Assembly (NCBI RefSeq): GCF_900107965.1
Contig: NZ_FNVU01000002.1
Span: forward strand, 558,001 to 622,000
Source of the DNA: Actinacidiphila yanglinensis
Lineage (GTDB): Bacteria > Actinomycetota > Actinomycetes > Streptomycetales > Streptomycetaceae
Length of the DNA: 64,000 nt
Reading direction: 5' to 3'
Under the pieces are notes generated by a model. It made no database searches, was not told where the DNA came from, and saw only the letters and a list, made by a program, of their open reading frames with translations. The position numbers and the translations under genes were made by a program. Shown here piece after piece: positions 12,279 to 17,804 of the stretch; position 1 is the stretch's first letter, and each line of letters starts with the position of its first letter.

Positions 12279-12572
12279 TCAGGGCGCCAGGAACCGCTCG
12301 ACCGTCTCGACCTTCGAGGTCAGCCCGTCCGTCACCGACGGCCGGATGTCCGCCTTGAGCACCAGGGAGACCCGCGGCGCGCGCGCCTCGACGGCGGCCA
12401 CCGCGCGGCGGACGACGTCCATCACCTCGTCCCACTCGCCCTCGATCGAGGTGAACATCGCGTCGGTGCGGTTCGGCAGCCCGGACGCGCGGACCACCCG
12501 CACGGCGTCCGCGACGTACTCCCCGACGTCCTCGCCGACGCCGAGCGGGGTCACGGAGAAGGCGACGATCAT
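12279..12572 (-). CDS. MTH1187/YkoF-type thiamine-binding protein
   Basis: A 97-residue protein of the thiamine-binding/DUF77 family: [20 protein letters not shown] opens a ferredoxin-like fold, followed by the family's [11 protein letters not shown] and SLVLKADIR motifs. Members bind thiamine or a related ligand and form tetramers; the cellular role in actinomycetes is not settled. Its ATG overlaps the stop of the upstream DUF3817 gene by four bases (ATGA), so the two are translated together. It converges on the ArsR gene with 49 bases between stops. Confidence 0.82.
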
Positions 12573-12946
12573 GCGGAGGTCACCGCCTGCGCGTCCGCGC
12601 CGGAGCCGCTCTCGGCCTGCTCCTGGGCCGCCCGTGCCGCCGCGACCGCGGCCTCGCACTCGCGCGCCAGCATCCGCTCCGCGAAGAAGCCGCCGGTGGG
12701 CAGCACCGACAGCACCAGGTACAGCACCGAGCGGCCGAGCGGCCAGCGCGCCCGGTTCCAGGCGTCGGCCCAGAAGAGCACATAGATGATGAAGAGGATG
12801 CCGTGCACCATGCCCATCACGGGCACCGCGTTGAAGTCCGTGGTGCTCTTCAGCACCACGCACACCAGCAGGATCAGGAAGGAGGCCGCCTCCGGGGCGG
12901 AGATCAGGCGCAGCCTGCGCAGGGCGGCGGCGGTCTTGAGTTCCAC
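12569..12946 (-). CDS. DUF3817 integral membrane protein (copy 1)
   Basis: A 125-residue membrane protein of the DUF3817 family. It has about three hydrophobic helices ([52 protein letters not shown]), with the family hallmark WPLGR between the second and third and an ERxLARE end. The C-terminal tail is Ala/Gln/Glu-rich. The function of the family is unknown. The GTG at 12946 is the first start ahead of the conserved helix. It is coupled to the thiamine-binding-type gene by a 4-base overlap. A second family member lies at 17460. Confidence 0.82.
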
Positions 12947-13002
12947 GGGAACCTCGCTGTCGGAACGGTCGTACGGTGGTCGGGCGGTCGTGTGCGACCC
13001 TC

Positions 13003-13020
13003 TTGTGAAGACGATCACAA
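13003..13020. promoter_or_regulatory. CRP-like palindrome
   Basis: TTGTGA-AGACGA-TCACAA is a perfect 6-base inverted repeat containing TGTGA-N6-TCACA, the classical consensus of the Crp family; Streptomyces Crp favours GTG-N6-type symmetric sites. It lies 57 bases upstream of the DUF3817 start and 167 upstream of the DUF2127 start, in the divergent promoter region (12947-13186). Confidence 0.5.
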
Positions 13021-13186
13021 ACTCCTCCCCATTATCACCGGACCGTATCGATGACCGGCGCCGGGGGTCGGCAACCGCCCGCCGGGGGATAACGTCCCCT
13101 TCCACGTACCGCCGCTCGCGTACGGCGCCGCCGCGGCGCAGCACCTTCCGATTCCGCGCCACCACCACCCACGGGGACCGACAGCG

Positions 13187-14044
13187 ATGAGCAGAGACTG
13201 GGACCGCAGGCACTGCGCCAGCAAGGGCCACATCACCTACGCGCCCGACGAGCCGGGGCTGCGCGAGCGGCTCCGGGCGAGCACCGCGGTCGGTCCGGTG
13301 TGGCGCTGCCTGCGCTGCGGGGACTTCGTGCTCGGCGAGCCGCACGGCTCGGGACCGGCCGGCAACGCCCCGCTGGTGCCGCGCGGCCGGGCGCTGCGCG
13401 ACCTGTTCATCCTGCGCTTCCTCGCCGTCGAGCGGGTGCTGCGCGGGGTGCTGGTGATCCTGGCCGCCTGGGCGGTGTGGAAGTTCTCCAACTCCCAGGA
13501 CGCGGTGCGCAAGCTCTTCGAGGACGACCTCACCGTCTTCCGCCCGGTCGCGAACCACTTCGGCTACGACCTGGACCACTCGCCGGTCGTCGACACCATC
13601 CAGAAGACCTTCGACTACAAGAAGTCGACCCTGCACGTGGTGGCCGGCGGCCTGCTGGGCTACGCGCTGATCGAGACGGTCGAGGGCGTCGGGCTGTGGT
13701 TCGGCAAGCGCTGGGCGGAGTACCTCGCGGTCGTGGCCACGGCGGCGTTCCTGCCCATCGAGGTCTACGAACTGACCGAGAAGATGAGCGCGTTCAAGGT
13801 CGGCACCCTCGCGCTGAACGTCGTCGCCGTCCTCTACATCCTCATCGGCAAGCGGCTGTTCGGAATCCGCGGCGGCCACGCCGCGTTCGAGGCGGCGCGG
13901 CGCGGGGAGTCGCTGCTGGAGGTCGAGGCCGCGGCGGGCGTCGCGGACGGCGACGACACTCCCGCCGCGGGCGCCGCCGGTGGTCAGGGCGGCACCAAAG
14001 CCCCGCTTCCGGTCCGGCGCCGCTCATCGGCCGATACCGTGTGA
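13187..14044 (+). CDS. DUF2127 membrane protein with N-terminal Cys/His motif
   Basis: A 285-residue protein. The first 55 residues contain His9/Cys10 and a CLRC pair (WRCLRCGDF), which could form a small zinc ribbon. After that come four hydrophobic segments typical of DUF2127, with the conserved HVVAGGLLGYALIETVEGVG and EYLAVVATAAFLPIEVYEL regions. The C-terminus is an Ala/Gly-rich, probably cytoplasmic tail. Its stop is three bases from the first AIM24 gene, so it leads a four-gene operon. No function is established for the family; linkage to AIM24 suggests a membrane-associated complex. Confidence 0.8.
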   Translation: MSRDWDRRHCASKGHITYAPDEPGLRERLRASTAVGPVWRCLRCGDFVLGEPHGSGPAGNAPLVPRGRALRDLFILRFLAVERVLRGVLVILAAWAVWKFSNSQDAVRKLFEDDLTVFRPVANHFGYDLDHSPVVDTIQKTFDYKKSTLHVVAGGLLGYALIETVEGVGLWFGKRWAEYLAVVATAAFLPIEVYELTEKMSAFKVGTLALNVVAVLYILIGKRLFGIRGGHAAFEAARRGESLLEVEAAAGVADGDDTPAAGAAGGQGGTKAPLPVRRRSSADTV

Positions 14045-14047
14045 TCC

Positions 14048-14686
14048 ATGGCGTTTCTCAGGCTGCAGGGCACCCGCGTGCTCGCCGTCGACCTCGCCGG
14101 GGACGCGGTCAGGGCGAAGAACGGCGCGATGGTCGCCTACGACGGCGAGATGACGTTCAAGAAGATGACCGGCGGCGGCGAGGGCCTGCGCGGCCTGATG
14201 ACCCGCCGCATCACCGGTGAGGCGATGGCCGTGATGGAGGTCAAGGGCCACGGCACCTGCTACTTCGCCGACCGCGCCACCGAGATCAACCTGGTCCGGC
14301 TCGACGGCGAGAAGCTGTTCGTCGAGGCCTCCAACCTGCTCGTCACCGAGACGTCGCTGCGCACCGGCACCACCTTCACCGGGCTGCGCGGCGCCTCCCA
14401 GGGCAACGGGCTGTTCACCACCACCGTGGAGGGCACCGGGCAGGCCGCGATCCTGTCCGACGGCCCCGCGATCGTGCTGCGGGTCACCGCGCAGACGCCG
14501 CTGGTCGTCGACCCGGGCGCGTACGTCGCGCACACCGGCGGCCTGCGGCAGCAGCTCCAGACCGCGGTGGGCTGGCGCACCCTGGTCGGCGAGGGCTCCG
14601 GCGAGAGCTTCCAGATCCGGTTCGAGGGCGACGGCCTGGTCTACGTCCAGCCCAGCGAGCGCATCACGGTCGGGGGTCAGCTCTAG
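14048..14686 (+). CDS. AIM24-family protein 1
   Basis: A 212-residue AIM24 (TRAP-like beta-roll) protein. Characteristic phrases are NGAMVAYDGEMTFKK near the N-terminus, the glycine-rich GLRGLMTRRITGE, FVEASNLLVTE in the middle, and the closing GSGESFQIRFEGDGLVYVQ. There is no signal peptide, so it is cytoplasmic or peripheral. The yeast namesake supports inner-membrane organisation in mitochondria; bacterial roles are not defined. Its TAG stop shares a base with the GTG of the next gene. Similarity to the next gene shows old tandem duplication. Confidence 0.85.
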   Translation: MAFLRLQGTRVLAVDLAGDAVRAKNGAMVAYDGEMTFKKMTGGGEGLRGLMTRRITGEAMAVMEVKGHGTCYFADRATEINLVRLDGEKLFVEASNLLVTETSLRTGTTFTGLRGASQGNGLFTTTVEGTGQAAILSDGPAIVLRVTAQTPLVVDPGAYVAHTGGLRQQLQTAVGWRTLVGEGSGESFQIRFEGDGLVYVQPSERITVGGQL

Positions 14687-15369
14687 TGCCTTTCACCCGG
14701 ATCAACTCCAAGATGATCGAGGCGCAGATCGCGCCGGGGCAGCGGGTGTTCAGCCAGCGCGGGGCGATGCTGGCCTACCGCGGCCCGGTGACCTTCACGC
14801 CCAGCATCACCGGCGGCCAGGGCGGGCTGATGTCGATGATCGGCCGCCGCGTCGCCAACGAGGCGACGCCGCTGATGACCGTGGACGTGCCGGCCGGGCC
14901 CGGCGGCCCCGGACAGACCCCGTCCGGCACGGTGATGTTCGGCCACGGCGGCCACCACATCCACATCGTCGACCTCACCGGCGAGACGCTGTACGTGGAG
15001 GCCGACCGGCTGCTCGCCTTCGAGGGCTCGCTCCGGCAGGGCACGATGTTCATGGGCTCCCAGGGCGGGGTGATGGGCGTGATACGCGGTCAGGCCACCG
15101 GCCAGGGCCTGTTCACCACCACCCTGGCGGGCAAGGGCGCGGTCGCGTTCATGGCGCACGGCGGGGTGATCGAACTCCCGATCGGCCCGCGGGGCCCGGT
15201 GCACGTCGACCCGCAGGCGTACGTCGCGCACCGCGGCGACGTCCGCAACAAGCTCACCACCGCGCTCGGCTGGCGGGAGATGGTCGGCCGCGGTTCGGGC
15301 GAGGCGTTCCAACTGGAGCTGTCCGGCAACGGGATGGTGTACGTGCAGGCGTCGGAGGAGAAGCTGTGA
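14686..15369 (+). CDS. AIM24-family protein 2
   Basis: A 227-residue paralog of the preceding gene. It keeps the same landmarks: QRGAMLAYRGPVTFT, a GGLMSMIGRRVANE glycine loop, ADRLLAFEGSL and the ending GSGEAFQLELSGNGMVYVQ. A Gly/Pro-rich insert (AGPGGPGQTP) and a His-rich stretch (FGHGGHHIHIVDL) in the middle set it apart. The GTG start overlaps the stop of the first gene by one base, and its own stop overlaps the third gene by four, so production is likely stoichiometric. Confidence 0.85.
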   Translation: MPFTRINSKMIEAQIAPGQRVFSQRGAMLAYRGPVTFTPSITGGQGGLMSMIGRRVANEATPLMTVDVPAGPGGPGQTPSGTVMFGHGGHHIHIVDLTGETLYVEADRLLAFEGSLRQGTMFMGSQGGVMGVIRGQATGQGLFTTTLAGKGAVAFMAHGGVIELPIGPRGPVHVDPQAYVAHRGDVRNKLTTALGWREMVGRGSGEAFQLELSGNGMVYVQASEEKL

Positions 15370-16085
15370 GCCATCCGCCCCCACCGTCCGCGCCGCCCAC
15401 GCCGCCGGCCGGTCCGGTGATCCACGACGCGTGGACGCTGCCGTCGAACGACAACGTCAACCCGTACGCCTTCAGCGTGGAACTGGACGGGCAGTGGTTC
15501 CTGCAGAAGGGGAAGATGATCGCCTTCTACGGGCAGGTCGACTTCCAGGGGATCGGCGCGGGCCGGCTGGACCACCTCATCGCCGAGAACTTCCACTCGC
15601 CGATGCACGCCGCGGACTGGGTCGTCGCCCAGGGGCGCGGCAAGATGCTGCTCGCCGACCGGTCGTACGACATCAACTCCTACCGGCTCGACGACGGCAA
15701 CCTCACCATCCGCTCGGGCAACCTGCTCGCCTTCGAGCCGGGCCTGTCGCTGAAGCAGTCGATCATCCCGGGCTTCCTCACCCTCATCGGCACCGGCACG
15801 TTCGTGGCCGCGTCCAACGGCGCCGTGCACTTCGTGGAGCCGCCGATCCGGGTCGACCCGCAGGCGCTGGTCGGCTGGGCCGACTGCCCCTCGCCCTGCC
15901 ACCACTACGACCACGCGTACCTGCGCGGCGTGCTCGGCGGTGTCCGGGCGATGACGGGGATAGGCGGGGCGTCCGGCGAGGAGCACCAGTACGAGTTCGT
16001 CGGCGCCGGGCAGGTGCTGCTCCAGTCCACCGAGTCGGTGCTGGCCGAACGCGCCACCGGGGCGGGCCCGGAGCCCGGTACGTAG
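15366..16085 (+). CDS. AIM24-family protein 3
   Basis: A 239-residue, more divergent third AIM24 protein. It starts with a Pro-rich segment (SHPPPPSAPPTPPAGP). It then shows the family core in LQKGKMIAFYGQVDF, RGKMLLADRSYDINSY, GNLLAFEPGLSLKQ and the final EEHQYEFVGAGQVLLQSTES. The WADCPSPCHHYDH motif near residue 180 places two Cys and two His close together, a possible metal site absent from the other two. The start is GTG at 15366 in a GTGA overlap. The divergence suggests specialisation within a hetero-oligomer; that is inference. Confidence 0.83.
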   Translation: MSHPPPPSAPPTPPAGPVIHDAWTLPSNDNVNPYAFSVELDGQWFLQKGKMIAFYGQVDFQGIGAGRLDHLIAENFHSPMHAADWVVAQGRGKMLLADRSYDINSYRLDDGNLTIRSGNLLAFEPGLSLKQSIIPGFLTLIGTGTFVAASNGAVHFVEPPIRVDPQALVGWADCPSPCHHYDHAYLRGVLGGVRAMTGIGGASGEEHQYEFVGAGQVLLQSTESVLAERATGAGPEPGT

Positions 16086-16222
16086 GACCTCCGTACGGGC
16101 CCGCGCCCCGAATCGGGCCCCACGCCCCGGGTTCCGGCGGAGGCCGTGACCTCGCGCCCGCCGGATCGTTCCGCACGGTGACCACACGGCTACCTTGGCG
16201 ATCCGTCGGGGGTGCAACTCCC

Positions 16223-16235
16223 GGTAGCATGTACC
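16223..16235. promoter_or_regulatory. short inverted repeat at the absC-like start
   Basis: GGTA-GCATG-TACC ends one base before the regulator's ATG at 16237. MarR proteins often repress their own gene through such sites. It is short and could occur by chance. Confidence 0.25.
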
Positions 16236-16236
16236 T

Positions 16237-16719
16237 ATGCAGACCGAGACCGCGGACGACGTCACCACCTGGCTCAACGAGGACGAACAGCGGGCCTGGC
16301 GGATCCACCTGGACGTCAGCCGCCTGCTGATGTACCAACTCGAGCGCGATCTCCAGCCGTTCGGCCTGACGAACAACGACTACGAGATCCTGGTCAACCT
16401 CTCCGAGGCGCCCGAGCGCCGGATGCGGATGAGCGACCTGGCGAAGTCCACTCTCCAGTCGAAGAGCCGGCTGTCCCACCAGATCACCCGGATGGAGAGC
16501 TCCGGCCTGGTTCGCCGGGAGGACTGCGAGTCCGACCGCCGCGGCCTGTACGCGGTCCTCACCGACCAGGGCTGGGAGACCATGAGCCAGGTCGCCCCCC
16601 GCCATGTCGCCTCGGTCCGGGCGCACTTCATCGACCTGCTCACCCCTGAGGCGCTCTGCGCCTACCGGCAGGCCCTCCAGCCGGTCGCCGAGCACCTGCG
16701 GGCCGAGCGCGTCCGCTAG
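16237..16719 (+). CDS. absC: MarR-family regulator, AbsC-like
   Basis: A 160-residue MarR-type winged-helix protein. A dimerisation helix (EQRAWRIHLDVSRLLMYQLE) is followed by the DNA-binding region (MRMSDLAKSTLQSKSRLSHQ) and a wing with the DxxRR signature (CESDRRGLYAVLT). Length and wording resemble AbsC of S. coelicolor, which in the literature influences antibiotic production and coelibactin genes in a zinc-dependent way. The assignment by sequence memory and position is likely but not proven. A GC hairpin overlaps its stop. It stands 151 bases after the AIM24 operon. Confidence 0.78.
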   Translation: MQTETADDVTTWLNEDEQRAWRIHLDVSRLLMYQLERDLQPFGLTNNDYEILVNLSEAPERRMRMSDLAKSTLQSKSRLSHQITRMESSGLVRREDCESDRRGLYAVLTDQGWETMSQVAPRHVASVRAHFIDLLTPEALCAYRQALQPVAEHLRAERVR

Positions 16720-16726
16720 GACGCGC
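16707..16726 (+). terminator. hairpin over the absC-like stop codon
   Basis: GCGCGTCC (16707-16714) and GGACGCGC (16719-16726) form a perfect 8-bp stem with the loop GCTA, which includes part of the TAG stop. No T-run follows. Confidence 0.5.
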
Positions 16727-16861
16727 CGCCAGGGTGTACAGCAGGGCGTACAGCCGGGGCGCGCGGCGCTTTGCCGGCCGCCCTGCCGCCCCGTGACCGC
16801 GCAACCGCCCAGAAAGTGGACGCCTGTGCCCGGCATGTGACCGGCGGGTAGGCTCGGGGCC

Positions 16862-17371
16862 GTGCCAAAGCCGTTGAGCCTGCCCTTCGACCCCATCTCC
16901 CGCGCCGACGAGCTGTGGACGCGGCACTGGGGCGGCGTGCCCTCGATGGCCGCCATCACCTCGATCATGCGCGCGCAGCAGATCCTGCTCGGCCAGGTCG
17001 ACGGGGTCGTCAAGCCCTACGGCCTCACCTTCGCCAGATACGAGGCCCTGGTGCTGCTCACCTTCTCCAAGGAGGGCGAGCTGCCGATGTCCAAGATCGG
17101 CGAGCGGCTGATGGTGCACCCCACGTCCGTCACCAACACCGTCGACCGGCTCGTCACCGCCGGCCTCGTCGACAAGCGCCCCAACCCCAACGACGGCCGT
17201 GGCACGCTGGCCTCGATCACCGCCAAGGGCCGCGAGATCGTGGAGTCCGCGACCCGCGACCTGATGGCGATGGACTTCGGCCTCGGCGTCTACGACCGGG
17301 AGGAGTGCGGCGAGATCTTCGCGCTGCTGCGCCCGCTGCGGATAGCGGCCGGCGACTTCCAGCCGGAGTGA
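16862..17371 (+). CDS. MarR-family regulator
   Basis: A 169-residue MarR winged-helix protein, distinct from the AbsC-like one. The order is an N-terminal dimer helix with ADELWTRHWGGVPSMAAITS, the recognition region LPMSKIGERLMVHPTSVTN, and the wing PNPNDGRGTLASITAKG. It begins with GTG at 16862. It is followed 88 bases later by a DUF3817 gene and then icmA; this MarR-DUF3817-icmA order is, from memory, shared with S. coelicolor. Target and ligand are unknown; its position makes the DUF3817 gene or icmA possible targets. Confidence 0.85.
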   Translation: MPKPLSLPFDPISRADELWTRHWGGVPSMAAITSIMRAQQILLGQVDGVVKPYGLTFARYEALVLLTFSKEGELPMSKIGERLMVHPTSVTNTVDRLVTAGLVDKRPNPNDGRGTLASITAKGREIVESATRDLMAMDFGLGVYDREECGEIFALLRPLRIAAGDFQPE

Positions 17372-17459: not shown

Positions 17460-17804
17460 ATGAAATCCAGCGTGTTGACCCGCTACCGGGTGATGGCCTA
17501 CGTGACGGGTGTGCTGCTGATCGTGCTCACCCTGTGCGTCATCGCCCAGTACGTGCTCCACCTCGACGGCGCGAGCACCGCTACCGGCATCGTCGGCTTC
17601 GCCCACGGCTGGCTCTACGTGGTGTACCTGATCTTCGCCTTCGACCTGTGCGCCAAGGCGAAGTGGCCGCTCGGCCGGATGGCCTGGGTGCTGCTGGCCG
17701 GCACCGTGCCGACCGCCGCCTTCTTCGTCGAGCGCCGCGTCACCCGCGAGCTCGGCCCGAAGGTGGTCCGCGCCGAGAAGGCCGCCGAGCCGGTCAAGGT
17801 CTGA
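17460..17804 (+). CDS. DUF3817 integral membrane protein (copy 2)
   Basis: A 114-residue membrane protein with three hydrophobic helices, the AKWPLGRMAWVLL motif and an ERRVTRE end, matching the DUF3817 copy at 12569-12946. The N-terminus (MKSSVLTRYRVMAYVTGVLL) serves as the first anchor. Function unknown. It sits between a MarR regulator and icmA, and a stem-loop follows the stop. Confidence 0.82.
   Translation: MKSSVLTRYRVMAYVTGVLLIVLTLCVIAQYVLHLDGASTATGIVGFAHGWLYVVYLIFAFDLCAKAKWPLGRMAWVLLAGTVPTAAFFVERRVTRELGPKVVRAEKAAEPVKV

Follow-up and report, generated by a model that had tools for sequence, protein, structure and literature searches.

In yeast, the mitochondrial AIM24-domain protein Aim24, which according to PMC6162560 is the sole AIM24 protein of S. 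cerevisiae, is described as lacking a usual transmembrane helix yet firmly bound at the inner membrane, as found at ~400 kDa, and as needed for the integrity of a membrane complex, the mitochondrial contact site and cristae organizing system (MICOS) (PMC3975624). The plant proteins PAWH1 and PAWH2, two paralogs that carry a predicted C-terminal membrane helix and stabilise the Hrd1 complex of endoplasmic reticulum-associated degradation, have an AIM24 domain with three repeats, each likened to TRAP, and were modelled on the structures 1YOX and 1PG6 as a homotrimeric ring whose flat face lies on a membrane (PMC6677890). Fungal IDC4, a single gene described in a signalling context, encodes an AIM24 domain with a Pro-rich N-terminus and was proposed to be a cytosolic scaffold (PMC6162560). 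The solved bacterial AIM24 proteins PA3696 (1YOX) and SpyM3_0169 (1PG6) have one AIM24 chain type per entry, and a 2019 paper states that no bacterial AIM24 protein has a known physiological role (PMC6677890). Here we describe a bacterial locus that differs from all of these in carrying three diverged AIM24 genes in a row, A, B and C (AIM24 paralogs 1-3). The trio follows a DUF2127 gene, D, in a stretch of 64,000 nucleotides from Actinacidiphila yanglinensis (contig NZ_FNVU01000002.1, positions 558,001 to 622,000; the window), and it is probably a heteromeric, and new, variant of the known AIM24 family.

D (13187..14044), A (14048..14686), B (14686..15369) and C (15366..16085) stand head to tail on the forward strand, with junctions of +3 (D-A), -1 (A-B) and -4 bases (B-C). 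This four-gene row had been proposed in a preliminary description of the DNA and is borne out by the open reading frames and by Pfam scores of 145.6 bits for D (DUF2127, PF09900, cut-off 24.3 bits) and 128.1, 124.5 and 42.2 bits for A, B and C (AIM24, PF01987, cut-off 25.7 bits). The NCBIfam model TIGR00266 (cut-off 96.6 bits) was not reached by A (53.0) or B (39.2) and had no match in C. A is 40-47% identical to B, and C, the divergent paralog, is 25-31% identical to A and B. The private features listed in the same description are present in the translations, namely a His-rich patch in B and, in C, a Pro-rich start, which recalls the N-terminus of fungal IDC4, and a CPSPCHH cluster (the GWADCPSPCHHYD loop).

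A, B and C keep together as a single unit, as would be required of a hetero-oligomer. Among 246 genomes drawn evenly from the class, a set used for the counts of both C and DUF2127, C is present in 32 (21 of the 22 family members sampled, and 11 genomes of other families), and A and B precede it, in order, in all 32, every locus having been read. Within the window's genus (g1; 35 sampled genomes, the window genome being 9.59 Mb) C occurs in 34, and it occurs in 20 of the 21 sampled genomes of a large sister genus (g2), presumably Streptomyces, which we take to be the largest genus of the family. The sampled family members without C, G231 and G449, also lack A and B; they have four and three AIM24 genes, respectively, none of them at the A-B-C site of G231, and each keeps another AIM24 cluster of three that resembles, by spacing and scores, the TerD-linked trio described below. 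We further read the best 80 of at least 547 relatives of C (the named loci), which are nearest relatives and not a random draw: the trio is complete and in order in 78, and the other two (L188 and L221) are cut by a contig end. The A-B overlap of -1 is kept in 58 of 78 named loci and the B-C overlap of -4 in 74 of 79. With its order kept across families and its overlaps recurrent, the gene arrangement exceeds chance.

A family-wide AIM24 search of 108 class genomes gave matches in 52, of which 30 have one gene each and 22 have two or more; in those 22 the genes form 28 singles, 27 clusters of three and a single pair (G242). Among 198 genomes of the phylum, a partly overlapping set, 75 have an AIM24 match, and inspection by eye showed, beside the threes, no genes in adjacent pairs and a single row of four, in a genome of another class (G130; L151 5404-7952), whose members the tree placed as A, B, C and C. 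A quick tree of 135 domains, holding 12 of 14 A-B-C trios and 13 of 13 TerD-type trios, resolved A, B, C and the three TerD-linked domains T1, T2 and T3 each as one group, with Shimodaira-Hasegawa-like approximate likelihood ratio test (SH-aLRT) values of 93, 99, 100, 98, 100 and 99; none of 58 single AIM24 genes fell inside any of these six clades. In a tree of 93 rows the values were 82 for A, 99 for B, 96-99 for T1-T3 and 100 for C together with two G130 rows.

The window's genome has a second AIM24 trio (L008 3311-6482, on contig C25 at about 261.3-264.5 kb) as well as a single AIM24 gene. This second trio consists of a TerD-AIM24 fusion followed by two AIM24 genes; like A-B-C it sets three AIM24 domains in a row, and the order T1-T2-T3 is conserved in f1 and f69 genomes. 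It is unlike A-B-C in that TerD is fused to T1, a Pro-rich region linking the two domains, whereas A, B and C have no TerD domain and fall into separate clades. A gene for a YgjP/SprT-like metallopeptidase precedes the L008 trio. Joining A or B with T1, T2 or T3 was rejected in six of six approximately unbiased (AU) tests (p-AU 0.0105-0.0308, uncorrected, on a quick 44-row tree). Given the separate clades and these rejections, each trio most likely goes back to a triplication of its own, a conclusion with moderate support, and descent of both from one ancestral trio is disfavoured by the same six tests. The literature we found joining AIM24 with Streptomyces concerned only tellurite resistance. 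That bacterial AIM24 genes can have TerD neighbourhoods is pointed out in PMC5822837, with reference to Anantharaman et al. 2012.

Profile comparison indicates that AIM24 itself holds three internal repeats. When the three thirds of the A/B/C profile were compared with hhalign, they matched with p values of 2.7e-4, 2.1e-4 and 6.4e-3 in one consistent register, at modest probabilities of 41.5, 45.6 and 5.9. A predicted model of A (mean predicted local distance difference test score, pLDDT, 77.3) matches 1YOX with a Z of 19.9 and 1PG6 with 19.6, the next row reaching 2.4, and in a Foldseek search with the model of C the best match was 1PG6 (E 1.1e-8), with 1YOX at 8.7e-6; the models of A and C thus share the fold of the solved proteins. 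A VIA-align comparison of the A model had no TRAP structure among its rows, which excludes nothing. Low confidence in the A model is confined to residues 42-59, 112-121 and 174-185 and to the C-terminus. The three internal stretches, each rich in Gly and carrying hydrophobic and basic residues, recur at corresponding points of the three repeats; they may face one side and touch a membrane or a partner. By a simple hydropathy scan A and B lack a membrane helix, and the single borderline stretch of C is mostly strand and loop in the model.

Taken together, the conserved unit, the overlaps, the clusters of three and the repeats with the published ring make three genes for three ring positions the simplest reading. 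With three TRAP-like repeats in each AIM24 chain, three chains would close the ring, as in the published model. Genomes with one gene would build a homotrimer, and here the three ring positions would have passed to three genes that are no longer separated, with the overlapping stop and start codons allowing coupled and equal synthesis of A, B and C. The ring would be cytoplasmic, given that A and B have no membrane helix, and might form a flat scaffold on the membrane that holds or stabilises membrane protein complexes, as is thought for eukaryotic AIM24. C would be the special subunit, marked by its Pro-rich tail and by a Cys/His loop as a possible zinc site. That A, B and C form a heterotrimer we consider rather probable; to the whole reading, an obligate 1:1:1 heterotrimeric AIM24 ring that serves as a scaffold, we give about an even chance. 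A position of the trio on the membrane side is more tentative and somewhat less likely than not, and is proposed because of the roles of yeast Aim24, the plant PAWHs and fungal IDC4. Aim24 is also said to stabilise respiratory supercomplexes (work of Deckers et al. 2014).

Several points count against the heterotrimeric ring. The row of four in G130 and the pair in G242 depart from the pattern, and the former means that three is not absolute; moreover, the trios stem from about two old events, so that the 27 clusters of three are not independent cases. A few relatives have a wide gap (L175) or a predicted gene between B and C (L154), so overlap is usual and not obligatory. Phylogenetic support comes from SH-aLRT values of quick trees and from six uncorrected AU tests near 0.03, and C sits on a long branch of uncertain placement, for which treekit gave a warning that long branches meet. 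On the structural side, the published ring is a template-based model, our predicted structures are single chains only, and the model of C is weak in the Cys/His loop (block means of pLDDT 53-61). Finally, co-conservation could reflect one pathway without contact. A related alternative is that A, B and C form three separate homo-oligomers, each with its own client, that share an operon through a common stress response. Their low identities and the private features of each speak for such a division of labour, but links this loose would not account for the joint absence of the genes, the lack of single genes in the trio clades, the conserved overlaps or the near absence of pairs, and we regard separate homo-oligomers as possible but rather unlikely.

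The preliminary description had gone further and suggested a hetero-oligomer of fixed stoichiometry anchored by DUF2127. Its AIM24 part is upheld by the 32 of 32 ordered trios, the joint absences and the overlaps; the DUF2127 anchor is not, since D and C meet at the rate of chance. Among the 246 class genomes DUF2127 is found in 62, C in 32 and both in ten, where 8.1 are expected (Fisher p 0.39, kinship uncorrected). In these ten the two are adjacent in the window genome, lie 24-33 kb apart in five g2 genomes and are on different contigs in G182, G310, G354 and G405. On the refuting outcome that had been named there, absence of co-occurrence in other genomes, the result divides: it holds for DUF2127 outside the genera in which that gene adjoins the trio and fails for A-B-C, whose genes stayed together in the genomes checked. 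Within g1 the association is close, with D in 34 of 35 genomes, D and C within 3 kb in 33 of 35, and A and B behind D in 29 of the 30 D loci read, the window genome included. D also stands directly before A in 15 of the 80 named loci (eight Streptomyces records, the rest Actinacidiphila, Kitasatospora, Streptacidiphilus and Streptantibioticus), although the D-A gap is looser than the overlaps within the trio, measuring 0-6 bases in 9 of these 15.

These adjacencies, together with the four hydrophobic segments of D, are what speaks for a four-subunit complex in which D anchors the A-B-C ring at the membrane with fixed stoichiometry. Against it, besides the chance co-occurrence, no D adjoins the trio in any of the 20 C-bearing g2 genomes (24-33 kb away in five, on another contig in one, absent from 14) or of the 11 C-bearing class genomes of other families. 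G231 has D without A-B-C and G205 has A-B-C without D, so the two can part, and in the three genomes examined for this D lies elsewhere beside unrelated genes, for an MFS (major facilitator superfamily) transporter (G182), an enolase-superfamily protein (G038) and a PrpD-like protein (G096). An obligate partnership with DUF2127 is rejected on the co-occurrence count and on G231 and G205, and we hold the D-anchored complex to be quite improbable. For the heterotrimeric ring, D would be an optional neighbour, a membrane gene that shares its transcription unit in some Streptomycetaceae and that may dock the ring without being needed for it; even this docking role appears unlikely. The zinc-ribbon-like N-terminus of D (C10, H15, C41 and C44) is kept in all 30 rows that reach these positions, a further 15 rows being gapped there; it was not part of the preliminary description. 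DUF2127 proteins from other actinomycetes show the same arrangement, which makes it a trait of that DUF2127 type and not of the operon. As a separate observation, the five g2 genomes with DUF2127 on the contig of the trio (G368, G378, G406, G423 and G440) hint at an old regional link or at relocation.

The Cys/His residues of C are well kept among 65 distinct sequences: C174 and H180 in 63 each, H179 in 60, H183 in 55 and C178 in 54. The whole set H77/H81/C174/C178/H179/H180/H183/H207 reads HHCCHHHH in 50 of the 65. Most sequences of other families show it degraded, with Ser, Tyr, Gln, Arg and further residues, inside a preserved GWAD-P-P frame, and in the alignments other AIM24 proteins read VAH at this place. 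A zinc site of C is therefore possible within the family; an ancestral one is unsupported, the set having decayed in most other-family sequences. That C in fact binds zinc we find doubtful. The His patch of B (H87, H90, H91 and H93) is kept in 54, 52, 57 and 34 of 63 sequences, mainly within the family, and the window's B has extra residues near it that are absent from ten other rows compared and that, by length, G224 shares (L058).

The MarR-type gene directly downstream of C (16237..16719, forward strand), described earlier as AbsC-like, is confirmed as an AbsC ortholog: it matches PDB entry 3ZMD with an E of 1.7e-67 and 229.4 bits, the next best structure being 3ZPL, which we take to be SCO3205, at 127.3 bits. 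Entry 3ZMD is AbsC, SCO5405 (PMC3737563). Counting from this tag, the trio would correspond to SCO5406-SCO5408 of S. coelicolor, and no published role was found in the literature searched for these tags. The neighbourhood raises an explanation that links the trio to AbsC as a platform for buffering or sensing metal, its zinc subunit being C (C174, C178, H180 and H183, with H77, H81 and H207). Zinc-dependent regulation involves AbsC (PMC9739823, PMC3737563), absC follows A-B-C in 77 of the 80 named loci, and the HHCCHHHH set is common in C. Shared control, however, is not seen: the element TTCAAC, similar to one half of the site reported for the related SCO3205, precedes absC in 50 of 79 named loci but the first gene of the operon in only 2 of 80. 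In addition, no absC-family gene stands beside A-B-C in the eight other-family regions read, C178 is replaced by Ser and H183 is variable in most other-family regions, and the shared loss of positions mostly reflects one lineage split. We judge a zinc-linked module to be unlikely.

Given the TTCAAC upstream of it, absC probably has a promoter to itself. An exact match to the SCO3205 consensus TTnAAnnnTCAA occurred upstream of absC in 0 of 79 loci and upstream of the first operon gene in 0 of 80, and control of A-B-C by AbsC through its own motif was rejected on the 2 of 80 and 0 of 80 counts. A scan of 12900-16900 for sigma-70 promoters and terminators found nothing, which says little for Streptomyces promoters. 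A palindrome, TTGTGA-N6-TCACAA (13003..13020), lies between the divergent upstream gene, which encodes a small DUF3817 membrane protein, and D/A. At least 11 of its 12 positions are kept in 77 of 78 family loci, where one shuffle per region gives no more than 9; the genome has no second exact copy and six sites with one mismatch, and at 11 of 12 the palindrome recurs in only one of nine A-B-C loci outside the family. It conforms to GTG-N8-CAC, the pattern reported for sites of Crp/GlxR (PMC10033298). The palindrome is thus a putative operator, Crp-like in shape. Its distance to the DUF3817 start is ~57 bases, against 167 to D, so its target may be DUF3817 and not the trio. A single coincidence is seen at L213 4251-9063 (Streptomyces sp. 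CNH099), the sole family locus without the palindrome, which is also without absC beside C.

The divergent DUF3817 gene occupies 12569..12946 on the reverse strand, with a GTG start placed by eye at 12946-12944 and an ortholog in L138 scoring 91.1 bits; a match to it immediately precedes A in 63 of the 80 named loci, and in the 15 loci with D it precedes D. Downstream of the AbsC ortholog follow a second gene of the MarR type, which matches 4B8X (presumably SCO5413) best, another DUF3817 gene (17460..17804) and a methylmalonyl-CoA mutase gene, so that the region has a DUF3817 gene on either side, upstream of the trio and beyond the second MarR gene. A reading of the locus as a defence system was dropped, as none of the four proteins D, A, B and C matched the PADLOC anti-phage models at E up to 0.01.

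Overall, the trio points to an AIM24 family in which the number of genes may follow the architecture of the assembled protein. In its most far-reaching form, which we see as a long shot, at least two conversions from a homotrimer to an obligate three-gene heterotrimer would have taken place in Actinomycetota, one beside absC and one fused to TerD, and A-B-C would be an asymmetric membrane scaffold with a zinc-holding C that links the state of the envelope to the AbsC-dependent control of zinc and antibiotics in Streptomyces. Should the heterotrimeric ring prove true, the three genes would encode a defined complex, and a prediction for the whole family would follow, that gene clusters match the number of ring positions, at a locus that adjoins a regulator of zinc-dependent antibiotic production.

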